From Melioribacteraceae bacterium (lineage in GTDB: Bacteria; Bacteroidota; Ignavibacteria; Ignavibacteriales; Melioribacteraceae): a DNA stretch of 64,000 bases. The DNA lies in NCBI GenBank assembly GCA_030584085.1, contig CP129490.1, positions 3,381,511 through 3,445,510 on the forward strand, written 5' to 3'. Of the stretch, positions 3,043-19,877 are shown one piece after another. Position 1 is the first letter of the stretch, and each line of letters begins with the position of its first letter. The notes below the pieces were generated by a model that searched no databases, was not told the origin of the DNA, and saw only the letters and a list, made by a program, of their open reading frames with translations. The translations under genes and the position numbers were made by a program.

Positions 3043-3621
3043 TTATTTAAGAGGGAATTTTAATCCAGCTCTAATACCAATATAGTTGAAATCTGAAGCT
3101 GCAAAAGTATATTTAGCTGACAAATCTAATGCCATTGAACCAAGCGGTAATTCGTAACCGGCACCGAACGCAAAACCAAATTTACTTTCTGAAGATGATG
3201 CATCTCCAAAACCAGCACCTGCACCAGTCGTCTCAACATCAAATGTAAATGCATGGATACCAGCTTGAGCCATACCGTATAAACCTTTTGCAAAGAAATA
3301 CTTAACACCACCCATAACAACTATTGCTGACCAATCCCATTTCATTGTTGTAGTAGATCCAAAGAAACTATAAGTAACTTCATCTCCAGGCCACATTAAA
3401 TAACCAGCATCAACGAAACCAACTAAGTTATTTGAAAAACCATATTCAAATCTAGCTGTACCGCCAAATCCGGTTCCGATTTCAGAGGCATCAGCTGCAT
3501 CGCCCGAAGGAAGTGCTACTTCACCACCAATACCAATGGCAATTTTACCTTTTTCGGTTTGTCCATAAATAAATGATGCAGACAACAATAAAACAAGAAC
3601 AGTAAATAATACTTTTTTCAT
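3043..3621 (-). CDS. small outer-membrane beta-barrel protein
   Basis: 192 residues with a clear Sec signal peptide (MKKVLFTVLVLLLSASFIYG, cleaved before Gln). The mature part alternates hydrophobic and glycine-rich strands (GYLMWPGDEVTY, GVKYFFAKGLYGMAQ, FGFAFGAGYELPLG) and ends in a hydrophobic C-terminal strand GIRAGLKFPLK. This is the look of the OmpX/OmpW-like 'outer membrane protein beta-barrel' families. Function unknown; probably structural or adhesive. A good Shine-Dalgarno sequence (AAAAGGAGGA, complement of 3622-3631) precedes the ATG, unusual for this genome and suggesting high expression. Its leader also holds an inverted repeat at 3665-3686. Confidence 0.8.
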   Translation of the reverse strand: MKKVLFTVLVLLLSASFIYGQTEKGKIAIGIGGEVALPSGDAADASEIGTGFGGTARFEYGFSNNLVGFVDAGYLMWPGDEVTYSFFGSTTTMKWDWSAIVVMGGVKYFFAKGLYGMAQAGIHAFTFDVETTGAGAGFGDASSSESKFGFAFGAGYELPLGSMALDLSAKYTFAASDFNYIGIRAGLKFPLK

Positions 3622-7426: not shown

Positions 7427-8560
7427 CTAAATACCGCGAATACAAATCAGACTTACATCATCTTCGTATTTCCCGGTTGTAAATTCATTAAATTCATATT
7501 TGATTTTTTCTATTGCATTTTCGGTAGATTTAGTACGTTTTATGACGTCCATAAATCTTTCCTTTCCGTATTGTTCTCCGGTACTCGGATTTCTTGATTC
7601 AATGATACCATCGGATATGAGATAAATTGAATCCCCTTCTTTTAAATCAAATGAGATATCTTGGTAATCACCAAACTCATTAAATCCCAACAGTAATCCG
7701 TTTGATTTAACCATTTCCACATTATTATACTTCGAAACAAAAATCGGAAGATCTCCGGCACCACTATAGTGGGCAGTTTTCTCTTTCTTATTTAACAAAA
7801 TGATGGAGAGTGTGATAAATACTTCAGAGAGTCTCTCATCTTTAAATATAGATCTATTTACACTTTGTACAATCTCATCTGCTTTTAATTGTTTTGTAGA
7901 TTCAACAGCAAACCGAATTGCACTTCTTACATAACCGGCATAAGCAACGGCAAAATACCAAGCGCCCCACTTTTTGCCCATAACATCACCAAGAACAACA
8001 ACCAAGTAGTCATCATCAACATTTACATAATCAATAAAATCACCGCCGGGCGTTCCTTCAAAGGGAACATGCCAATGTGTAATCTCATATCCCTCAAATT
8101 TTGGAAAATCTGATGGAACTACTTTTGCACCAAGCGAACCGGCCGCCTTCTGTACTTCTTCAACTGTTTTAGCTCGTTCTTTCTTTTTGCTTTGGAGTAT
8201 AGCTCTTACTTTTGCAATTACGACTTTGGGAGTGGAGGTCTTTATGATGTAATCTTCTATTTCTAATTCATATCCTTCAAGAATATCGTCATCTTCGCCT
8301 TTTGCAGTTAAGAAAACAAACGGGATTTTTTTTAATTCAGGATTGTCCAGCAAACGTCTTCTAAATTCGAATCCATTCATGACAGGCATCATAATATCGC
8401 TGATAATTATGTCAGGATTGATTTCCTTTGCTTTAGCCAATCCATCTTCCCCGTTAATAGCAACCTCGCACTTGAAGCCGGCTTTTTGAAGATTATAAGA
8501 AAAAAGTTTTGCAACATTTGCTTCGTCTTCAACTAATAATATTTGGTAATCTTCTGCCAT
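7427..8560 (-). CDS. response regulator with PP2C/SpoIIE serine phosphatase output (RsbU-like)
   Basis: 377 residues. An N-terminal receiver domain (about 5-120) has the acidic pair ED at 11-12, phospho-acceptor Asp55 in IISDIMMPVMNG and the conserved Lys around 109. A linker leads to a SpoIIE-type PP2C domain (about 175-377) with the metal-site motifs GGDFIDYV and VLGDVMGKKWGAWYFA and the C-terminal SDGIIE...KYEDDVSLICI. This class dephosphorylates STAS antagonist proteins in partner-switching cascades. The next gene downstream (one base away) is exactly such a STAS protein, its likely substrate. It is the last gene of a four-gene signalling operon starting with the histidine kinase at 12215. 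Confidence 0.9.
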   Translation of the reverse strand: MAEDYQILLVEDEANVAKLFSYNLQKAGFKCEVAINGEDGLAKAKEINPDIIISDIMMPVMNGFEFRRRLLDNPELKKIPFVFLTAKGEDDDILEGYELEIEDYIIKTSTPKVVIAKVRAILQSKKKERAKTVEEVQKAAGSLGAKVVPSDFPKFEGYEITHWHVPFEGTPGGDFIDYVNVDDDYLVVVLGDVMGKKWGAWYFAVAYAGYVRSAIRFAVESTKQLKADEIVQSVNRSIFKDERLSEVFITLSIILLNKKEKTAHYSGAGDLPIFVSKYNNVEMVKSNGLLLGFNEFGDYQDISFDLKEGDSIYLISDGIIESRNPSTGEQYGKERFMDVIKRTKSTENAIEKIKYEFNEFTTGKYEDDVSLICIRGI

Positions 8561-8561
8561 T

Positions 8562-8909
8562 TTATTTTTGTATATGTGAATAGCTTTTTACTGCTTCTTG
8601 TAAGCTGCTGAATGATTCAAAGACTCTAAATAATCTTGTAAGTTCAAACATTGATCTAACCGCCGGTCTAAATCCCACTAATTTTAAATCGCCTTCAAGC
8701 TTAACAACTTTTTTAAGCGAGTTAACAAGAACTCCAAGAAAAGAAGAATCGACAAAATCACATTCCGATAAATCAATAATTATTTTTTTATAACCATCGC
8801 TCATTGCCTCGCTGAGTTTATCCTTAAGTTCGTTTGCTTCAAGAATAGAAGCCCGTTCAACATTGATAATCTCTACAATTACATCACCAATTCTTTCTTC
8901 TAGAATCAT
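8562..8909 (-). CDS. STAS-domain anti-sigma factor antagonist
   Basis: 115 residues, one STAS domain (SpoIIAA/RsbV type). The phosphorylatable site is visible as LSECDFVDSSFLGVLV, with Ser55 or Ser56 in the usual position. The unphosphorylated form would bind and sequester an anti-sigma kinase. It sits between the NtrC-type regulator gene and the PP2C response regulator, 12 bp and 1 bp away, so phosphatase and substrate are co-translated. No RsbW-like kinase is present in this window, so the binding partner must be elsewhere or be a non-sigma target. Confidence 0.9.
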   Translation of the reverse strand: MILEERIGDVIVEIINVERASILEANELKDKLSEAMSDGYKKIIIDLSECDFVDSSFLGVLVNSLKKVVKLEGDLKLVGFRPAVRSMFELTRLFRVFESFSSLQEAVKSYSHIQK

Positions 8910-8921
8910 TTATTCACCGTT

Positions 8922-10307
8922 TTAATTTTCTCTACTGGCTTCAATGCCATACTTATCCATTAATCGATAAAGTGTGGCACGACCTATATTTAATTTCTTA
9001 GCAGCTTCAACTATATTACCGCTTGTCACTTTTACGGCATGTTTGATCGCTTCTTCCTTTAACTTTTCAAATGGAATTACCGGAGAGTTATCGCCAAACA
9101 ATTCTCCGTTGCTCATACTTAAGGATGAAGATGAGTGTCCCGAAATTTGAGGAGGAAGAATAGAAATATCAATTTCATTTTGATCCGTTAAAATTATACA
9201 TCTTTCTATGAGGTTTTCCAATTCTCTAATGTTTCCCGGCCAGTCATAATCATACAAAACCTTTAATGCACTTTTCGAAAAGCCTTTTACATTCTTACTC
9301 AGCTTATCATTGAATTTATTAACGAAGTAATCAATTAGAATAATTATATCGCCTCTTCTTTCGCGTAATGGAGGGATAAAGATTGGGAATGAACTGAGTC
9401 TATAATATAAATCTTCTCTAAACTCTTTATTGTCAACTGCTTCTTTAAGGTCTCTATTTGTAGCCGAAAGAATTCTTACATCTGTTTTAATTACTTCCGT
9501 GCCGCCGACACGTTCAAATTCTTTTTGTTGAATAACTCTAAGAATTTTTGCTTGTAATGACATTTCCATTTCACCAATTTCATCAAGGAAAATGGTACCG
9601 CCATTACCGAGTTCAAATTTGCCAATTTTACGTTGATGTGCACCGGTAAAAGCACCTTTCTCATGCCCGAACAATTCACTTTCCAATAATTCTCTTGGAA
9701 TTGAAGCACAATTAACAACGATAAAGGGTTTCTCTTTTCTTGATCCGTTATAATGTATTGCTCTCGCAATTAGTTCTTTCCCAGTTCCGGATTCGCCTTG
9801 AATTAATACGGTAATATCATTATCCAATACTTTAGAAACTAATCTAAAGACTTTTTGCATGCTATTATCTGTGGATATAATATTATCAAAACTATATTCC
9901 TTTTGAAGATTTTCTTCAAGCTCATTAATCCTTTTTACTAATTCATAATTTGTAAGTGCATTTTTTATAGCCGGTTCAAGTCTGTTTTGATCGATTGGTT
10001 TAGGGAAATAATCGTACGCGCCGAGTCGAATTGATTCAATAGCAACCTCAACACTTCCTTGTGCCGAAAGCATAATGACAGGCAAGTTTTGGTTGGTGGT
10101 TTTAATTCGCTTAAGCACCTCATTCCCATTTATATCAGGCAACATAATGTCTAATAGAATAAGACTCGGATTTTCTGATAATGCGTTTAACGCATCAGTT
10201 CCGTTTGTAAATGTTCTAACGTTATATCCCCACTTGCTTTTAACCCAGTGAGTTAGCAATTTTAATATTGATTCTTCATCATCAACAATGAATACAGTGT
10301 TTTCCAA
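8922..10307 (-). CDS. NtrC-family sigma-54 response regulator
   Basis: 461 residues in three parts. The receiver domain (1-120) has Asp53 in LLDIMLPDINGNE. The AAA+ sigma-54 interaction domain (about 140-380) has Walker A GESGTGKE (171-178), the sigma-54-contacting GAFTGA loop (218-223) and Walker B GGTIFLDEIGEM. The C-terminal Fis-type helix-turn-helix (about 415-458) contains AAKKLNIGRATLYRLMDKYG. It activates sigma-54 promoters after phosphorylation, presumably by the kinase encoded 3 bp upstream. The only in-frame start at the right place is TTG at 10307, preceded by GGAGG at good spacing; the nearby ATG is out of frame. Confidence 0.92.
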   Translation of the reverse strand: MENTVFIVDDEESILKLLTHWVKSKWGYNVRTFTNGTDALNALSENPSLILLDIMLPDINGNEVLKRIKTTNQNLPVIMLSAQGSVEVAIESIRLGAYDYFPKPIDQNRLEPAIKNALTNYELVKRINELEENLQKEYSFDNIISTDNSMQKVFRLVSKVLDNDITVLIQGESGTGKELIARAIHYNGSRKEKPFIVVNCASIPRELLESELFGHEKGAFTGAHQRKIGKFELGNGGTIFLDEIGEMEMSLQAKILRVIQQKEFERVGGTEVIKTDVRILSATNRDLKEAVDNKEFREDLYYRLSSFPIFIPPLRERRGDIIILIDYFVNKFNDKLSKNVKGFSKSALKVLYDYDWPGNIRELENLIERCIILTDQNEIDISILPPQISGHSSSSLSMSNGELFGDNSPVIPFEKLKEEAIKHAVKVTSGNIVEAAKKLNIGRATLYRLMDKYGIEASREN

Positions 10308-10310
10308 GCA

Positions 10311-12215
10311 TTACCTCCTACTACGTTTGGGAAGCTTAATAATAAAAGTTGATCCTTTATTAAGTTCACTCGTTGCTTTTACAAGACCTTCGTGCAAATC
10401 GATAATTTGTTTAACGGCAGCAAGTCCAAAACCAGCTCCGGGAATTTGCATTCCTGTTCTGCCAACTTTACTAAACTTCTGGAATAATTTCGGAATATCT
10501 TCTTTTTTAATACCAACTCCGGTATCACTGATAATTATTTCTACCTCTTTCAAGAAATCCCTCGCCATTAAAGTTACTCTTCCGCCCTTATTTGTAAATT
10601 TAACTGCATTTGAGAGTAAATTTGTGATCGCTTTATTTATTCTTTCTTTATCGGCGTTAATAATTATCTGTGCATCCGGAATTTCAGTAGAAAAGGTTAT
10701 TCCTTCCTCTTCAGCAGTTTTAGACCACTTTTCTTTAAGTTCATTAAGCACTAATATAATATCGAAATCGGATTTTTCAAGAACATCACTTTCAGTTTCT
10801 AACTTAGAGAAATCAAGTATATCATTTATCAATCTTGCCAGTCTTTTACCTTCCGATAAGATTACATTACTAAATTCTTCAACCATTTCTCTAGGAAGAT
10901 CTTCGTCTGAAACTATTGTTTCAGCGAATCCGACAATGGATGCAAGAGGTGTTCTTAATTCGTGAGATACATTCGATACAAATTCATTTTTTAATCTATT
11001 GAGTTCTTCCAAAACTGTAATCTGTTGTTTGGCTCTATCTTGCTCGATAGAAATCATTCTGTTGGCTTCAATTAACTTTGAGTTCAGATCCTTAAGTTTA
11101 TTTTCGTTCTTAATTCGATCTGTAACATCTCTTCCTATTCCTATTAATCCTTTAATTTCATCATCAGATTTGATGTTGCGTGCATTTATATCGAATGTTA
11201 ATATATTTTCAAACTTGTCAACTAAACGAACTTCAAACGAAGTCAACTCCTCTTGGTTTAATATATGCTGAAATGAAATTGCTATATCGGCTTTATTGGT
11301 CTCATCAACAAATTCAAGAAAATGTTTGCCAACAATTTCATCCGGAGTATAGCCTAAAGTTCTTGCTCCCCGCGAATTAACAGTAACGAAATAACCATAA
11401 CTATTAAGGGTGAAAATCAAGTCTTCCGCTGTTTCTATTAAAAGACGAAATCTTTCTTCTGATTTTTCGAGCTTATTTCTATATTCGAATTCATCCGTTA
11501 CGTTTGTAATAGTTCCTACAATTCGGACAATCTCATTATTCTCTTTAATTGGGAAACCCGTGTGCCGCACAAACATTGGCTTATCATTTTTATCATGCAT
11601 CTTATATTCGATAATTGCGTCTTCGCCATTTCTTAATTTTTTTATGAATTCTTTAAATCGACTAATGTAATCAGGGTCTATTTTTCTAATAAGATTAATC
11701 CGGTTAGAAACGATATCCTCACTAGTATAACCGAACATTCTATAAGCGACATCCGAGATAAAATTATATTTTTTACCGTCGGCATCAGATGAATATAGTA
11801 CTGAGCCAATATTATGCGTAGTTTCTGTAAACCAATCTTCAATCTGTTTTGTTTGTGTAATATCCCAAAACGAAGTAAGAACAAACTCCGGTTGCTTATC
11901 AATGGCACTGATATAGAGAGAATTTGCATTGAACCATCTAACAGTACCATTTAAATCACTATGCTTTAGTTTATAATTTGAAACTGAGCTTTTATTCTTG
12001 ATTGCAGTGATAAATGGCAATTGTTCTTGGTCAATTTCTACATTACCCTCACGATAAAATTTTATGGACTTATGAAAAGGTTTTGAGCTTTTTCCCAACT
12101 TCAAACTAAATAACTCAAGTGCGTAATCATTTGCAAAAATAAGTTTGACGTCCTTGTCCGTTGCAATTAGCGGAATATCTACTTCACTAAGGATATTTAG
12201 AAATTCATTCGCCAC
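10311..12215 (-). CDS. multi-PAS sensor histidine kinase
   Basis: 634 residues, no predicted membrane segment, so cytoplasmic. Three PAS-like domains in order (about 5-125, 130-245 with a PAC-like tail, 253-370), then a short coiled coil, HisKA with the phospho-accepting His418 in SNVSHELRTPL, and a HATPase domain with NKAITNLLSNAVKFT (N box), DTGVGI (G1), a short F-box-like LFQKFSK and GAGFGLAAV (G2). It is the first gene of the operon kinase / NtrC regulator / STAS / REC-PP2C and probably phosphorylates both receivers. The start is a GTG at 12215 (sequence MANEFLNILSEVDIP); no ATG lies nearby. Confidence 0.9.
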   Translation of the reverse strand: MANEFLNILSEVDIPLIATDKDVKLIFANDYALELFSLKLGKSSKPFHKSIKFYREGNVEIDQEQLPFITAIKNKSSVSNYKLKHSDLNGTVRWFNANSLYISAIDKQPEFVLTSFWDITQTKQIEDWFTETTHNIGSVLYSSDADGKKYNFISDVAYRMFGYTSEDIVSNRINLIRKIDPDYISRFKEFIKKLRNGEDAIIEYKMHDKNDKPMFVRHTGFPIKENNEIVRIVGTITNVTDEFEYRNKLEKSEERFRLLIETAEDLIFTLNSYGYFVTVNSRGARTLGYTPDEIVGKHFLEFVDETNKADIAISFQHILNQEELTSFEVRLVDKFENILTFDINARNIKSDDEIKGLIGIGRDVTDRIKNENKLKDLNSKLIEANRMISIEQDRAKQQITVLEELNRLKNEFVSNVSHELRTPLASIVGFAETIVSDEDLPREMVEEFSNVILSEGKRLARLINDILDFSKLETESDVLEKSDFDIILVLNELKEKWSKTAEEEGITFSTEIPDAQIIINADKERINKAITNLLSNAVKFTNKGGRVTLMARDFLKEVEIIISDTGVGIKKEDIPKLFQKFSKVGRTGMQIPGAGFGLAAVKQIIDLHEGLVKATSELNKGSTFIIKLPKRSRR

Positions 12216-13562: not shown

Positions 13563-13943
13563 CTACTGCCAACTAAGACCAGCACTGCCTTCCTGATCAT
13601 CTTTGAAATTAAAACTGGAAATTGCTTCGTCAAGATCTTTGTGTACGTCAAAGACTTTATTCATACTAGTCATTTCAAAAATTAATGATGATAATTCATT
13701 ACTGTAAACCAATTTAAGATCACCGCCTGATGCAACAGTTTTCTTCAAACTACTAACGAGCGAGCCAAGGAAAGTTGAATCTAAATATTCACACATACTT
13801 AGATCAACCACGAGAAATTTATTTTCTTCATTAAGTTGCCTAAGTACAAACTCCTTAAAACTAACAGCGTACTGTAAAGTAGCTCTTGTTAAATAAACAG
13901 TAATAACCGTAACCTTGCCGTAATCTTTACTTTTGAAATCCAT
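13563..13943 (-). CDS. second STAS-domain protein
   Basis: 126 residues, one STAS domain with the phosphorylation-loop motif LSMCEYLDSTFLGSLVSSLKKTV around residues 48-70; the Ser/Thr of DST is in the position of the SpoIIAA phosphoserine. It is clearly related to the STAS protein at 8562-8909 (shared D.STFLG/D.SSFLG, SLKK.V, GGDLKLV blocks), so one probably arose from the other or both answer to the same phosphatase. The last 15 residues (DDQEGSAGLSWQ region) are an acidic/Ser tail not seen in the first copy. Transcribed alone, from a promoter between 13944 and about 14060. Confidence 0.88.
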   Translation of the reverse strand: MDFKSKDYGKVTVITVYLTRATLQYAVSFKEFVLRQLNEENKFLVVDLSMCEYLDSTFLGSLVSSLKKTVASGGDLKLVYSNELSSLIFEMTSMNKVFDVHKDLDEAISSFNFKDDQEGSAGLSWQ

Positions 13944-14062
13944 TAAAATTCCGTATTACTTGAAAATGAATGCTAGAGAATTAATAATCTTTAAACATAT
14001 CTTAATTACAGAAATAAATCAATTAATCCTTGTGTGTTACGTTAAGCAGTTTTCTTTCTGAT

Positions 14063-14113
14063 AAAAAAAAGGAAGCGTAAAATCCATACCCCCGTATAGA
14101 ACTCTACGCTTCC
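14063..14113 (-). terminator. hairpin followed by T8 (minus strand)
   Basis: GGAAGCGTA (14071-14079) pairs with TACGCTTCC (14105-14113), with a 25-nt loop that contains its own short stem (ATAC/GTAT). On the minus strand the stem is followed at once by TTTTTTTT (complement of 14063-14070), a good rho-independent terminator form although the loop is long. Confidence 0.65.
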
Positions 14114-14155
14114 CCATCGTTGGGAGGAATTATTTTCATTAAAATATCTTGATAT

Positions 14156-14192
14156 AAAAAAGGGGAGAACTTAACCAGAATAAGTTCTCCCC
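14156..14192 (-). terminator. perfect 11-bp hairpin terminator (minus strand)
   Basis: GGGGAGAACTT (14162-14172) and AAGTTCTCCCC (14182-14192) are exact reverse complements with a 9-nt loop. On the minus strand the stem is followed by TTTTTAT. It would end a transcript coming from 14200-14654 or from the operon whose last gene stops at 14655. Confidence 0.8.
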
Positions 14193-14654
14193 AAACCGGA
14201 GTTGAGAAATGATTTTACCGTAAAATCATCCTCAACAAATTTTGAAGAGTTAAACGCAGCAAGTAAAAGTAAATACCGGATGCAGCTACGTTGCCAAAAA
14301 GAATTCATTATAAATCTAGGCAACTCGGTACTCACCTGCAGGTAAAAGTATACCAGTAATTCTTTTACCTGCTGCCCCCTAGAGTATAAATAATAAACTA
14401 TCAGGATTATTATTTGAGCGAATTTAACTGGAATAATTTCCATGTTAAATTTAATCGAACCTCTTAGGTTTATTCAGTATTTTAAGAACACTGAGACTAA
14501 TTAATCCGTTAAATTTCTGTAGGATAAAATTCTCGTCTCATTCGCCACTCGATTTTATTAGCCAATTTTGATGCCAGGCTTATTTTTACGCTAATTCAAG
14601 ATATTAAATTCAAATGATGCGAAATTATTTCGTAGTAAACGCAATTTATGCGCA
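14193..14654 (-). ncRNA. candidate structured non-coding RNA or long structured 3' UTR
   Basis: On the minus strand, in order: a hairpin at 14457-14419 (8-bp stem AATTTAAC/GTTAAATT plus 5-bp TGGAA/TTCCA), one at 14414-14389 (8 bp), an 11-bp stem GCAGGTAAAAG/CTTTTACCTGC at 14372-14338, GTTGCC/GGCAAC at 14324-14290, a 15-bp two-part hairpin at 14236-14201 (CTCAAC and ATGATTTTA arms), and then the terminator. The 14362-14375 arm can also pair with 14256-14269 (13 of 14 positions plus one G-U), so two folds compete. I could not match it to tmRNA, RNase P RNA, SRP RNA, 6S RNA or a known riboswitch. The length and 5' end are guesses. Confidence 0.45.
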
Positions 14655-15458
14655 CTAATTCAGGGGAAAAGAAAATCCAATACTTATCTCTTGCGAGGTA
14701 ATCTCAGGTGAAGATACTGCTTGATGGGGTTTTGTAGTTATATCGGTAAAGAATAATAAATCGACTTGACTAGCTGCCCAAACCAATGCTGCGGCAACTA
14801 TAAATAAATTTCTTACTTTATAAGACGAATTGTAGTCATCATATTTTGTATTTATCAACAATTTATCTGTTTCATTTAAGTATGCGTTCTTTGCGTCATT
14901 TGTTTTGATTATATAATATATTGCCGTTGCTGTTGAACCAAGACCAAGTGCGGAGTATATAATTCCTCCAGTAGTTTTATCCATTGCAAAATGCCCCCAA
15001 CCAGGCACTAATAAGTTTTTTACAACCGCTATTTTATAATTATTCTGAGCCGTGATTAGTTCTTGTTTAACTAATCTCAGAGAATCAAGAATTGGTCTTT
15101 CTTGTTCTAAATTATTTATAAAGGCTACTTTAATTTCATTAAAAAAATTTACAATTTTTGGGGAAATCCTAGTTGGATCCATTGAATGGTTCGAATTTAA
15201 TCGCAACAGATTTTCGAAAACCGTTTTGGAAATTGTTTCCTCCCCTAAAGAATAATGAGCCATTCCTTTTAACTCGAGTATTTGTACCAATTGAATAGAA
15301 TTATAATTCCCGGAATCGATCATTTTATCTGCCAACTCGATAACCTCTTTATACTCAAAAGAAATATATTTTTGAGTCAGAATATCTAAAGGTTGTTCTT
15401 GAGCTGTTGCTAAAGAAAATAGAAACAATATGTAGATTAACTTTGCTAGGCGCGGCAT
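14655..15458 (-). CDS. exported/membrane protein with TPR-like N-terminus and DUF5683-like C-terminal membrane region
   Basis: 267 residues. Signal peptide (residues 1-19, ending ATAQ). Residues 25-110 form helix pairs like a short TPR block (LTQKYISFEYKEVIELADKMID..., LKGMAHYSLGEETISKTVFENLL). The C-terminal part has LVPGWGHFAMDKTTGGIIYSALG (about 152-174), the 'PGxGH/Q' plus GIIY pattern of DUF5683-type small membrane domains, and a second hydrophobic segment FIVAAALVWAASQVDLLFF. Function unknown. It starts directly at the stop of the kelch-protein gene (no gap) and is the last gene of the seven-gene operon. Confidence 0.65.
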   Translation of the reverse strand: MPRLAKLIYILFLFSLATAQEQPLDILTQKYISFEYKEVIELADKMIDSGNYNSIQLVQILELKGMAHYSLGEETISKTVFENLLRLNSNHSMDPTRISPKIVNFFNEIKVAFINNLEQERPILDSLRLVKQELITAQNNYKIAVVKNLLVPGWGHFAMDKTTGGIIYSALGLGSTATAIYYIIKTNDAKNAYLNETDKLLINTKYDDYNSSYKVRNLFIVAAALVWAASQVDLLFFTDITTKPHQAVSSPEITSQEISIGFSFPLN

Positions 15459-16736
15459 TTATCTCAACAACAACATTTTTTTTGTTATAAAATTATGATC
15501 TGCGATTAAGCTATAAAGATAAACTCCGGTTGGAACAGCTTTTCCTTCTTGATTTGATCCATTCCATTTAATACTATGATTCCCGGCGAGAAATGATCCA
15601 TCAACCAGAGTTATAATTTTCTCTCCGAGTGTATTATATATCTCGACCTGTATTTCCATACTTTTTTGAAGCGTAAAGGAAATGTTTGTTTCCGGATTAA
15701 ATGGATTTGGATAATTTTGGGAAAGGCTAAAGTTTTTAATTAATTCACTTTCTTCTACTACGCTTACAGGACCCGCATAAATTTCCTCGATAAAATCAAT
15801 AACTTTACCTGATGCATTCTCTCCGCCAAATACATATATTTTTTCATTTAAGACAACCGCAGCATGATTCCTTCTAGCATAGTTTAGTTGAGAACCGGCT
15901 GAAACAAGCGGGTAAGTATCATAATTTGAAATAACTTCGAGTGAAGCTACCGCAGGAGTTGTTTCATTGTACCCACCAATAAGATAAATCAAATCAGAAT
16001 AGGAAGAATATACAGCAACACCAGCCGCTCTGGGGGTAATGATTCTTGATCCAACCGAATAACGTGATAAATTTTCGAGTTGTATAATATCATAGTTTTG
16101 TAAAACACCATTAAAGGATCCACCAAACAAGAACAGATTATCATTTACTGCTACTGACATTTGTTGCACGGGCAATGCGTTGCTTGTAAAAGAAGTATCG
16201 TCGACAGAAGATATTTCCATGGAATGAAAGTCAAAATTTGCTATATAAGGTAAGTTAGCATTAGATCCACGTGAAGCTGCATAACCCCCAATCATTAATA
16301 AATTATCTTTATACACAGTGCCGGTAGAAAATACTCTATCAAATAGTTCATTTTCGTTATGAACTACCGTGTTTGGACTTCCGAAATCCCACTCTTCGAG
16401 ATTAAACGAATTTGGATTTACTTCATTAATTCCACCATAGATGTACAACTTATCGTCATGTATTCCGGCAAAAAATCCGTATCTCTTTTCAATCATATTC
16501 GCGACAATAGACCATTCACCACTTACGGGATTAAACTGTTGTATCCATCTAACATTCGCCTGGAGTGAATCAGAATATCCACCTATTACATAGACTAAAG
16601 AATCCCTGACAACTGATTGCGCTCCCGAAACAGGATATTTCATTTTCCCTGTAACTTGCCATGTGGGTTCATCTGCCGTTAGGTAACCACATAATAGATG
16701 AAAAGAAAATAATATGTATAAAATTTGATTCTTCAT
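15459..16736 (-). CDS. kelch-repeat protein with type IX secretion sorting domain
   Basis: 425 residues. Signal peptide 1-21. Five to six kelch repeats follow (VYVIGGYSDS, LYIYGGINEV, LLMIGGYAAS, LFLFGGSFNG, LIYLIGGYNET, IYVFGGENAS), which would form one beta-propeller. The C-terminal about 85 residues begin SLSQNYPNPFNPETNISF and end with VYLYSLIADHNFITKKMLLLR, the Por-type sorting domain recognised by the type IX secretion system. The mature protein is therefore expected on the cell surface or released. Its operon partners are a Ser/Thr kinase and a sigma-54 activator; a sensing or surface-binding role is possible but unproven. Confidence 0.88.
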   Translation of the reverse strand: MKNQILYILFSFHLLCGYLTADEPTWQVTGKMKYPVSGAQSVVRDSLVYVIGGYSDSLQANVRWIQQFNPVSGEWSIVANMIEKRYGFFAGIHDDKLYIYGGINEVNPNSFNLEEWDFGSPNTVVHNENELFDRVFSTGTVYKDNLLMIGGYAASRGSNANLPYIANFDFHSMEISSVDDTSFTSNALPVQQMSVAVNDNLFLFGGSFNGVLQNYDIIQLENLSRYSVGSRIITPRAAGVAVYSSYSDLIYLIGGYNETTPAVASLEVISNYDTYPLVSAGSQLNYARRNHAAVVLNEKIYVFGGENASGKVIDFIEEIYAGPVSVVEESELIKNFSLSQNYPNPFNPETNISFTLQKSMEIQVEIYNTLGEKIITLVDGSFLAGNHSIKWNGSNQEGKAVPTGVYLYSLIADHNFITKKMLLLR

Positions 16737-16771: not shown

Positions 16772-18385
16772 CTAGTTGTTCGCACCAAATTTGTTATTTA
16801 AGGTCTCAGTTAAATTAACATGTACAACCAACGTGTCGCTTTTAATAATATTAATCCTTTCAACGACATCCGGATACTCAGGATGTTTGACAGTTAAAAC
16901 ATGTGAACCGGGGATTAGTTTAACAACATTGCCAAAAGGTGTTTGCCCCAAAAATTTATCATTTAGGTAAACATCTCCCCACGGGAAAACATTGCAGGCT
17001 AAGTATCCATAAAGTGTGTCTAAATTCACTGTAATTCTCGAAGTTTCATCCGGTTTTATTTCTATAGTCTGCAAATAATCCGGATACTCAGGATGAACCA
17101 ATTTTATATTATAAATTCCAGCCCTTAAATCTATTGGTTCTGAAATCGGGGTTGTATCTAAACGTCGATCATCTAAATAGATGTGCGCCCAAGGAATACA
17201 TTCTACATACAAATTACCAAAAGCAATAGATGCAATCTTTTCAGTATTATTATCATTAATGATTTCGGGTTCGGAGTCTTCAACTCGAGTTTCGGGAATT
17301 TCGCTTGGAACTGTTTCTACTTTTGGATTCAAATTATCAATCGATAATTCCGATCCTTTGTTACCATCTTGCTCATCAATACTTATATCCATTTTAACAG
17401 AATTTTCACCCGAAAAATTTTCAGATAGTGATGGATCATCATTTATTTGATCACCCTGTCTAACAAATACAAAAATTAGTGCAATTATTAAAACAAGAAC
17501 CAAGCTTGCTACGCTGTATAATATTTTCCTGTTTTTTAAAAAATAAAAAGGAGTTCTTCTGATTTCACTAAGCGGAATTTCAAGATCTTGCAAGACTTCT
17601 TTTGCGGATTTATATCGTCGCTCAGTTTTCTTTGAAAGTAACTTTCTAAGAATTTGTTGAAGTTCTTCAGGGAGATTTATGAGATAAGCTTCTATAATTT
17701 CTACATTATAGTTTATCAGATTACTGATTGTTTGATTAACATCCTCACCTAAAAATGGATTTTTCTCGGTAAAAAGTTCTAATGCCAAAATTCCGGCAGA
17801 AAAAAGATCGCTTTGTGAAGTTAATTTTCCACCTTGTACTTGCTCAGGAGACATATAACACGGAGTACCAACTATCGTATATTGACTTGTTACAAAATTG
17901 TCATTCAAAGCTAAAGCCAAACCAAAGTCGCCGATTTTCAACTCGGATTTTTCGTTTACTAATATATTCTCTGGTTTTATATCGCGGTGAATAATCTGAT
18001 TTTGGTGAGCATAATTTAATCCCTTAAATAACTGTACAACAAGATTTTTTTTCTGTTCAAGCGAAAGTGATTTGTCTTTAATATATGCTCTTAGATTTTT
18101 GCTTTCGAAATATTCAAAAGAGATATAGAAGAATTCATTGAAGGTTCCGAAATCGAGAACTTTTATAATATTCGGGTCTTCCAACTTTGCCATAATTTTG
18201 GCTTCTCTTTTAAAGCGTTCAATCTTAGCTTCATCAAAAATTGTTTTTGTGTTAAGCACTTTTAAAATAATTTTTTTGCCGAGATAAATATGGTTGGCAA
18301 GATAAACACTTGCATGCTCGTCTTTTTTGAAGCATTCAATTATTTCAAATTTTTCAAACAATATTTCTGATGTAACTTGATTCAA
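16772..18385 (-). CDS. Ser/Thr protein kinase with two C-terminal PEGA domains
   Basis: 537 residues. Hanks-type kinase domain (about 13-275): Lys42 in the VAIK-like position, HRDIKPEN (133-140), DFG (153-155) and the SPE of GTPCYMSPE, so it should be active. One membrane helix around residues 286-310, a low-complexity acidic linker, then two PEGA repeats (about 392-455 and 458-525) sharing PWAHIYLDD / PWGDVYLND and LVHPEYPD / VKHPEYPD, outside the cytoplasm. PEGA domains are thought to bind surface or wall components. The TTG start lies one base after the stop of the sigma-54 activator gene. The pairing suggests the kinase transmits an envelope signal to that activator. Confidence 0.9.
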   Translation of the reverse strand: MNQVTSEILFEKFEIIECFKKDEHASVYLANHIYLGKKIILKVLNTKTIFDEAKIERFKREAKIMAKLEDPNIIKVLDFGTFNEFFYISFEYFESKNLRAYIKDKSLSLEQKKNLVVQLFKGLNYAHQNQIIHRDIKPENILVNEKSELKIGDFGLALALNDNFVTSQYTIVGTPCYMSPEQVQGGKLTSQSDLFSAGILALELFTEKNPFLGEDVNQTISNLINYNVEIIEAYLINLPEELQQILRKLLSKKTERRYKSAKEVLQDLEIPLSEIRRTPFYFLKNRKILYSVASLVLVLIIALIFVFVRQGDQINDDPSLSENFSGENSVKMDISIDEQDGNKGSELSIDNLNPKVETVPSEIPETRVEDSEPEIINDNNTEKIASIAFGNLYVECIPWAHIYLDDRRLDTTPISEPIDLRAGIYNIKLVHPEYPDYLQTIEIKPDETSRITVNLDTLYGYLACNVFPWGDVYLNDKFLGQTPFGNVVKLIPGSHVLTVKHPEYPDVVERINIIKSDTLVVHVNLTETLNNKFGANN

Positions 18386-18386
18386 G

Positions 18387-19877
18387 TTATTGTAAACCCA
18401 TTTCTTTCAATTTTAGCTGTATCCATCGAACCGATACTCCAAGAGATTCGGCTGTTAAAGTTCTATTACCATCAAATTGTTTTAAACGATCTTGCAAAAG
18501 TTTTATTTCAAAATCTTTCAGTGTTCCGTTAAAACTATTAAGAACTTCTTCCTCCTCAAAAATTAGATGATCTTCTGTTATTTTAGAATTATCACAAAGT
18601 ATTAAAGCGCGCTGCATCACATTAATTAACTGCCTTACATTGCCGGGCCAATTATATGCTTCTAACTTTTTAATTGAGCTTTTATCTAAGTGAAGATTTT
18701 TGTTCTCGGCAAATTTTAATATAAAGTCTTTAGCAAGTAACGGGATATCTGATCTTCTGTCTCTTAATGGTGGCACTTTAACGGGGAATACATTTAGTCT
18801 GTAAAATAAATCCTCCCTAAATTTTCCTTCTCTTACCAGTTGTTGTAAATCTTTATTTGTTGCAGTGATAATTCTAACGTCAATCTTTTTTATTTGAGTA
18901 TCACCAAGTCTTATAATTTCCTTATTTTCCAAAACCCGTAAAAGTTTTGCTTGTAACGCCATAGAAATATCGGCGATTTCATCTAAGAAAAAAGTTCCGT
19001 TATTGGCAACTTCCAACAGGCCTTTCTTGTCTGTATTCGCACCTGTAAAAGCTCCTTTCTTATAACCAAACAATTCGCTTTCTAAAAGTGTATCGGGAAT
19101 TGATCCACAGAATTGAGCTAAATAAGGTTGATCTTTTCTACTGCTTAGTTTATGAATTGCTTTTGCTACCAAATCTTTTCCTGTACCGCTTTCACCAAGT
19201 ATCAACACTGTTGCATCTGTTTTTGCCACTTTTTTTATTAACGATGCAAGTTCATTCATAGCTTTGCTTTGACCAACCATGTTGGGAATTTTTTCGGTGG
19301 CCTCAAGTTTATTTAGGAGAATTTCTCTTTCGTCTTTTAACTTTTCCAGATTTTCAATTCGATCCAGTGCCAAGGATACTAAATTCGAAAAGATATTTAG
19401 GAAAACTAAATTTTCATTTGTAAAATCTTTCCTGTTGATTTGACTATCTGCAACAAATACTCCCCAGACGTTTTCATTTCTTACAATGGGAACACCAATA
19501 ACTGACTTAATTCTTCTTATTTGGATACTCTCAAATTGAGATAATTGTGGGTCGCCTTGTACATCGTGATGAAGTATTGAGTGTTTTTTGTTAATAATTT
19601 CATTCAAAATACTGGATGAAAATTCAGAGAGGTCAACAATATTCTCTCCTCTAGTATTCCGGGCTGTAATAATTTTGAAAATATTCTCATCACTATTGTA
19701 TTTAGCGAACACACCTCTTTCAGCATTAATTACTTTTATTACCCAGTCAAGTGCGTCTTCAATAAGCGAGCCTTGGTACTCGGTAGAATTAAGAATGTGA
19801 CTTATTCTATAGAGTGCTTCAAAGTGTTCTTTTGAAACTTCCCTCATCTGTTCTAATTCAAGCCGTTCAATATTCAT
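18387..19877 (-). CDS. GAF-domain sigma-54 transcription activator
   Basis: 496 residues. N-terminal GAF domain (about 20-175), AAA+ sigma-54 domain (about 198-430) with Walker A GESGTGKD (228-235) and intact GAFTGA (275-280), and a Fis-type helix-turn-helix at the C-terminus (ESLGVSVRWIQLKLKEMG). It has no receiver domain, so it is not a standard two-component regulator; activity would be set by a ligand of the GAF domain or by phosphorylation from the Ser/Thr kinase encoded one base downstream. Such kinase/activator pairs occur in myxobacteria and other bacteria. No -24/-12 promoter was recognised by eye upstream of this operon, so target genes are unknown. Confidence 0.9.
   Translation of the reverse strand: MNIERLELEQMREVSKEHFEALYRISHILNSTEYQGSLIEDALDWVIKVINAERGVFAKYNSDENIFKIITARNTRGENIVDLSEFSSSILNEIINKKHSILHHDVQGDPQLSQFESIQIRRIKSVIGVPIVRNENVWGVFVADSQINRKDFTNENLVFLNIFSNLVSLALDRIENLEKLKDEREILLNKLEATEKIPNMVGQSKAMNELASLIKKVAKTDATVLILGESGTGKDLVAKAIHKLSSRKDQPYLAQFCGSIPDTLLESELFGYKKGAFTGANTDKKGLLEVANNGTFFLDEIADISMALQAKLLRVLENKEIIRLGDTQIKKIDVRIITATNKDLQQLVREGKFREDLFYRLNVFPVKVPPLRDRRSDIPLLAKDFILKFAENKNLHLDKSSIKKLEAYNWPGNVRQLINVMQRALILCDNSKITEDHLIFEEEEVLNSFNGTLKDFEIKLLQDRLKQFDGNRTLTAESLGVSVRWIQLKLKEMGLQ

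Follow-up and report, generated by a model that had tools for sequence, protein, structure and literature searches.

The closest described systems are the CrcZ and CrcY RNAs of Pseudomonas, about 400 nt long, and the Qrr sRNAs of Vibrio, which end in an intrinsic terminator and require Hfq for their action. In the Pseudomonas CbrAB system, the sigma-54-dependent CrcZ and CrcY are directly activated by an NtrC-family activator, and the gene order cbrA-cbrB-crcZ is reported as conserved (PMC8871633, PMC6296734, PMC8657755). In Vibrio, LuxO drives sigma-54-dependent small RNAs that adjoin the activator gene and have more than one activator site, and putative Qrr genes point the opposite way to luxO in 20 of 21 taxa (PMC10162802). 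No small RNA was found described for Ignavibacteria or Melioribacteraceae in the open-licence literature, and a term search of a study of sigma-54 regulons across phyla (PMC12316311) gave no mention of sRNA, Ignavibacter or Melioribacter.

Here we analyzed a 64,000-nt stretch of DNA (the window) from a Melioribacteraceae genome that consists of a single 3.74-Mb contig and encodes RpoN. A 711-bp non-coding gap (13944-14654) is flanked by two minus-strand ORFs, and upstream of it run seven co-directional minus-strand ORFs (22780 to 14655) with intergenic gaps of 0, 35, 1, 1, -4 and -4 bp. A PhzF-like protein is a further member of this run, encoded before the sigma-54 activator when reading towards the gap. 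The remaining genes relevant here are:

18387-19877, minus strand: sigma-54 activator (Pfam domains GAF, Sigma54_activat and Fis-type HTH), the proposed activator of the gap promoter
16772-18385, minus strand: Ser/Thr protein kinase with a PEGA domain (Pfam domains)
15459-16736, minus strand: kelch-repeat protein with a C-terminal secretion-sorting domain (Pfam domains)
14655-15458, minus strand: conserved 267-aa protein without a Pfam match, the last gene of the operon
13563-13943, minus strand: STAS-domain gene downstream of the gap, its upstream flank alignable in a genome without the RNA stretch

At its operon-proximal end the gap carries two palindromes, the first directly adjoining the 267-aa gene at its stop codon and the second one 20-bp step further on, followed by a candidate promoter:

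14639-14653, unstranded: activator (enhancer) site 1, GCGCATAAATTGCGT on the minus strand, a full match to RCGMA-N5-TKCGY
14619-14633, unstranded: activator (enhancer) site 2, ACGAAATAATTTCGC on the minus strand, a full match to the same pattern
14561-14576, minus strand: sigma-54 -24/-12 promoter element TGGCATCAAAATTGGC, the top position weight matrix (PWM) score in the gap

Within the 64-kb window there is a single strict tandem operator pair, and none of 20,000 shuffles of the gap contained one; the strict sigma-54 pattern arose in 126 of 20,000. Scored with a PWM trained on 31 sites from relatives (12.9-21.1 bits, median 18.4), the element at 14576-14561 reached 13.8 bits, near the low end of the training range, against 5.1 bits for the runner-up in the gap. 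The sigma-54 motif alone proves little, because of this low-end score, because its -12 reads TTGGC rather than TTGC, and because two places in the window, 3134 (inside an ORF) and 52236, score higher. The sigma-54-like site at 3134, which has a terminator behind it, was set down to chance because it falls inside ORF 3043-3621, and a site at 14296 (TGGCAACGTAGCTGCA), considered as the promoter of a second RNA, was dropped with its score of 3.0 bits, compared with 13.8 at 14576. With 12 nt allowed from the -12, the RNA start would be at ~14550, inside the range of 14460-14650 that an earlier note on this DNA had predicted, and the operators would then be centred ~96 and ~76 bp upstream, which are ordinary distances for activator sites. 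That note had also counted at least six inverted repeats in the gap. Local stems do exist (see below), but the repeats at 14615-14654 fold weakly as RNA (z -1.2, 27 of 200 shuffles as low); because of this weakness and the tandem-site evidence, those at 14653-14619 are better read as DNA operators than as RNA hairpins.

The layout, an RNA with a sigma-54-type promoter beside its activator operon, is that of cbrB-crcZ, and by adjoining the operon of the activator it also resembles the luxO-qrr arrangement. The window RNA has no Rfam match and belongs to another phylum than CrcZ; its promoter carries full palindromes, whereas CbrB reportedly lacks palindromic sites; and the window activator has a GAF domain without a receiver match. 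No Hfq was found over the cut-off in the family, so a Crc/Hfq decoy is unlikely. Unlike Qrr, the window RNA lies downstream of the activator operon and in the same direction, again without an Rfam match. By analogy, the window RNA would work in a CrcZ- or Qrr-like manner while standing outside both families.

The 267-aa gene is present in 51 of 79 family genomes, and DNA downstream of it was collected at 49 loci, comprising 48 of these 51 genomes (G069, G086 and the window's own genome being left out) and L010 from another family of the order. After L003 and L047 were dropped at contig ends, 47 loci with at least 250 nt were analyzed, among them L046 from the window's species. Tandem RCGMA-N5-TKCGY palindromes, 18-21 bp apart and near the stop codon, were found at 37 of the 47 loci (0 of 940 dinucleotide shuffles), a strict TGGCAY-N5-TTG-type sigma-54 element at 34 (2 of 940), and both together at 32 (0 of 940), which leaves the full module at 31 of 46 loci from other species. 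Only one of the two elements was found at seven loci (L009, L050, L060, L073, L082, L084, L085), and neither at eight (L006, L048, L063, L067, L077, L078, L081, L083). Because the latter include G003, which has kept the activator and the 267-aa gene while lacking the operators and the strict sigma-54 element, the link between activator, 267-aa gene and module is not strict. The activator itself was found at 60% identity or more in 9 of 22 genomes (in one of them in two pieces), all nine with the 267-aa gene; a tenth had only a weak 267-aa match. Within the window's genus, G002 lacks the 267-aa gene, the activator ortholog and the RNA stretch; its best activator match (43%) is taken as a paralog. 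The G001 contig breaks off within the 267-aa gene, so that the downstream DNA is missing.

What the promoter faces varies. Among the 32 loci with both elements, 22 have an RNA that we call type A, two have a type B RNA, seven face an ORF and one is the locus of the window's species. Type A is a conserved ~75-nt RNA after the promoter in 23 loci (alignment A1, including L005, L007, L008, L069 and 19 others); in most of them it begins with ACACACACA, after which come CUCCGUCCUUAAG or a variant of it and finally a terminator hairpin. At three of its nine stem pairs both bases have changed while still pairing, each in one or two sequences, and the covariation term is slight (-0.2 kcal/mol). A covariance model, R1, matched 26 of the 79 family genomes at E 4.4e-7 or better, with one such match per genome; 23 of these are training loci, and each of the three independent finds (G018, G076, G086) is preceded by tandem operators and a strict sigma-54 element. 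All 26 have a 267-aa match, as do 51 genomes in total (the match in G086 is truncated); the 28 genomes lacking it yielded no type A. Across the whole order type A was found in 27 of 164 genomes at E 0.001; the extra copy, in a genome of another family (G114, locus L145), is identical to L125 over all 3,077 compared bases and probably reflects a mis-binned contig. Carriers include Melioribacter and Stygiobacter records, one of them named Stygiobacter electus strain 09-Me, and Melioribacter roseus is available in culture. Rfam searches of eight family loci (five type A, two type B, one same-species) gave no match at the gathering score and one weak sroH match far below it, in the same-species locus, and type A is apparently an undescribed RNA family. 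A STAS motif lies within ~1.4 kb downstream of type A at 18 of 23 loci and one locus stops at a contig end; no such motif was found at the other four, so type A is not just a leader of the STAS gene.

The mode of action that we prefer for type A would be base pairing in trans, given a C-rich motif that is conserved and that the consensus structure leaves unpaired. Hfq was over the Pfam cut-off in none of the 79 family genomes, with one below-cut-off match containing stops (G002); the same search was positive in 5 of 14 control genomes, and a very divergent Hfq could escape it. CsrA was detected in 63 of the 79, the window's genome included. A CsrA-decoy reading of the RNA is conceivable but not supported. 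Seven genomes, some of which are incomplete, carry type A without a detected CsrA (G014, G046, G053, G054, G059, G060, G078). Six GGA triplets occur within the 488 nt of the window RNA.

The two other kinds of output are rarer. Type B (L071:1279-1350 and L080:1254-1327) occurs in two genomes of one genus and has a G5 loop in its terminator hairpin. Its two-sequence model, R2, returned only its own two of the 79 genomes (E up to 0.1) and had no match in the window, and an apparent likeness of its GGGGG loop to the second terminator of the window was dropped for that reason. At the seven ORF-facing loci (L004, L010, L051, L058, L066, L076, L079) the first ORF of at least 60 aa begins 9-302 nt past the inferred start; several of the products have, by eye, secreted-type N-termini.

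Behind the window's own promoter, the following features were placed:

14063-14550, minus strand: inferred non-coding transcript, placed by promoter spacing, ~395 nt to terminator 1 or ~490 nt to terminator 2
14256-14375, minus strand: long hairpin with a 14-bp basal stem and a competing local stem at 14338-14372 (inverted repeats and folding)
14202-14235, minus strand: hairpin UUGAGGAUGAUUUUAC/GUAAAAUCAUUUCUCAA (inverted repeats and folding)
14196-14201, minus strand: CUCCGG before terminator 1, a possible remnant of the type A motif ACUCCGUCC (R1 alignment 14218-14153, 16.1 bits)
14157-14192, minus strand: terminator 1, a 12-bp stem (14192-14162) with T6, found as stem plus T run and by terminator scan
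14063-14113, minus strand: terminator 2, a long stem (14113-14071) with one bulge and T8, absent from the consensus terminator scan list

The earlier description of the gap as hairpin-rich was confirmed beyond chance. Folding of the whole stretch gave z -6.2 (0 of 20 shuffles as low), that of the inferred transcript 14550-14156 gave z -8.3 (0 of 60), and the transcript minus its terminators still gave z -5.0 (0 of 60). An inverted-repeat search of the gap returned 57 pairs, 25 of them shown; many are distant and probably due to chance. The local stems are 14256-14269/14362-14375 and 14338-14351/14359-14372 (each 14 nt, 93%), 14162-14173/14181-14192, 14209-14218/14220-14229, and 14388-14396/14407-14415. 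Both of the terminators claimed before are credible, the first by the scan and the second by its folding (-27.6 kcal/mol, z -7.5, 0 of 200 shuffles as low). The scan reported three sites over both strands against 0.5 expected, of which terminator 1 is the sole minus-strand site; the two plus-strand sites overlap each other. The statement that the RNA belongs to no recognized family also held, with no Rfam match at the gathering score in the 64 kb; at E up to 10, eight matches near the gap were all far below their gathering scores, and neither CrcZ nor Qrr was among them.

Relative to type A, the window has the same place, operators and promoter type, but an RNA of ~395 rather than ~75 nt. With 60 candidates scored per genome under stricter filters (E up to 0.1), R1 gave no type A in the same-genus genomes G000, G079, G001 and G002, and comparison of A1 with the sequence of the window's species shows that the window's promoter is followed by neither the ACACACACA start nor the full CUCCGUCCUUAAG motif. 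The best R1 match in the window (14218-14153, 16.1 bits, E 0.072 over 64 kb) coincides with terminator 1 and the preceding ACUCCG; beyond the gap, the highest score is 11.4 bits for the window and, for 192 kb of control loci (10 kb of them surrounding the gap), 11.2 bits. Judged by this alignment, the 3′ part of the window RNA may be a much-changed type A with ~330 nt added in front. The second R1 match in the gap (13962-14039, 13.7 bits) was dropped, as it has four broken stem pairs and lies inside the STAS upstream flank.

Our reading, to which we assign a probability of about 0.72, is that the minus strand from 14654 to 14063 is a sigma-54- and activator-controlled gene for a structured regulatory RNA acting in trans. 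The stand-alone sRNA that the earlier note had listed as one option thereby gains support, from the sigma-54 element and tandem sites at the same place in 31 of 46 other-species loci and from the two terminators. Sequence comparison supports the promoter, the operators, the synteny and the type A family, and we infer the identity of the activator, transcription, the start site, action in trans, the target and the function. A signal would reach the GAF-domain activator, with the kinase and kelch proteins of the operon as its possible relays. The product of 18387-19877 is the most likely controller and would bind both sites and contact sigma-54 polymerase. The RNA would begin near 14550, pass through the long hairpin, the second hairpin and the short CUCCGG stretch, and end at terminator 1 (~14157) or, after read-through, at terminator 2 (~14063). 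It would be untranslated and would most likely act in trans, by pairing with mRNA through its unpaired parts or as a decoy; base pairing and a protein decoy may both be possible. Since 22 of the 31 other-species module loci yield type A, the type A output would have been replaced or enlarged in the window's genus, with the window RNA having taken over from type A or grown around it.

The alternative that survives best, though we consider it unlikely, is that the genus retained the promoter and lost its former product, type A or a protein gene, so that the hairpins are functionless leftover or inserted DNA. The failure to find type A in the four same-genus genomes fits such a relic, as does the distribution of the stretch, which by DNA search matched only its own genome among 39 genomes and had no match among plasmids; the shared arm, too, occurs in near-repeat copies, as would be left by palindrome-making errors. 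Against this, both terminators and the strong folding are intact, the operators are full consensus, and the two best R1 matches of the window both lie in the gap. Within the species, moreover, a genome reached by way of the 267-aa protein (G079), the one further carrier of the stretch that was found, has only 2 differences in 717 bp of the stretch. The two genomes are 99.3% identical over 12,001 positions (81 mismatches, 2 gaps), so ~5 differences would be expected per 717 bp, and 2 against ~5 is not significant evidence of constraint.

We regard it as improbable that the stretch is chiefly a 3′ UTR, transcribed by read-through from the seven-gene operon and then possibly processed to an RNA, with a minor part for the local promoter, a reading that would be compatible with the regulatory-RNA gene. 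From the end of the 267-aa gene to 14576 the scan reports no terminator on the minus strand, and in Pseudomonas basal CrcZ levels are sustained by read-through from the cbrB promoter (PMC8871633). Yet 32 of 47 loci have the promoter and operators in this position, and in G018 the operators, promoter and type A lie on a different contig from the 267-aa gene.

The earlier note had described two competing folds and had named a switching 3′ UTR and a regulator of the STAS gene as its other options. A switch in which alternative stems choose between termination and STAS gene expression now appears very improbable. The arm 14362-14375 does pair two ways, as claimed, but the rivalry is not an equal one: in a folded 131-nt piece the long fold (-43.7 kcal/mol) is favored over the local fold (-40.4 kcal/mol) by 3.3 kcal/mol, with pairing probabilities of 0.995 and 0.003, although the local stem may form first during transcription. 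Neither alternative stem uses the arms of terminator 1 or 2. No compensatory change was seen in the single same-species comparison, which offers just 2 differences in 717 bp. Control of the STAS gene in cis is likewise unlikely. Two strong terminators stand between the stretch and the gene, and the upstream flank of the gene (13947-14055) aligns in G002, which lacks the stretch and in which the PhzF gene directly precedes the STAS gene (aligned window positions 14055-13947). At 4 of 23 relatives' loci, moreover, the promoter-linked RNA is present without a STAS motif within ~1.4 kb.

Hardly credible, finally, is an mRNA for a small protein: the promoter does face an ORF of at least 60 aa in 7 of the 31 other-species module loci, but the sole ORF of at least 20 aa in the transcript (14443-14171, 90 aa) has no Pfam match, crosses hairpins, runs into terminator 1 and has its ATG changed to ACG in G079, a loss within the species that speaks against a protein product.

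Returning to the regulatory-RNA gene, the locus yields an apparently new RNA family (type A), an operator sequence and a probable activator, and it is a case of a conserved promoter with a changing product, in which the evolution of RNA output under constant control becomes testable. We advance, tentatively, a broader idea: the operators and promoter may form a fixed output socket behind which RNA is exchanged wholesale between genera, in bacteria without detected Hfq. Its outputs would be type A, type B, a protein-coding mRNA and the window's ~400-nt multi-hairpin RNA. If so, sensory input would stay constant while the regulatory RNA changes, and the window RNA would count as a new structured regulator that might act as a decoy.

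Outside the family, a 267-aa homolog in a Calditrichota bacterium (L139) is followed by tandem sites that fit a looser pattern, by a sigma-54 element and then by a protein gene, and given this locus the module may be older than the family. Within the window, a cluster at 7427-12215 adjoins the gap locus and encodes in a row a SpoIIE-type phosphatase with a receiver domain, a STAS-like ORF, an NtrC-type regulator and a PAS histidine kinase, a make-up resembling that of partner-switching systems.
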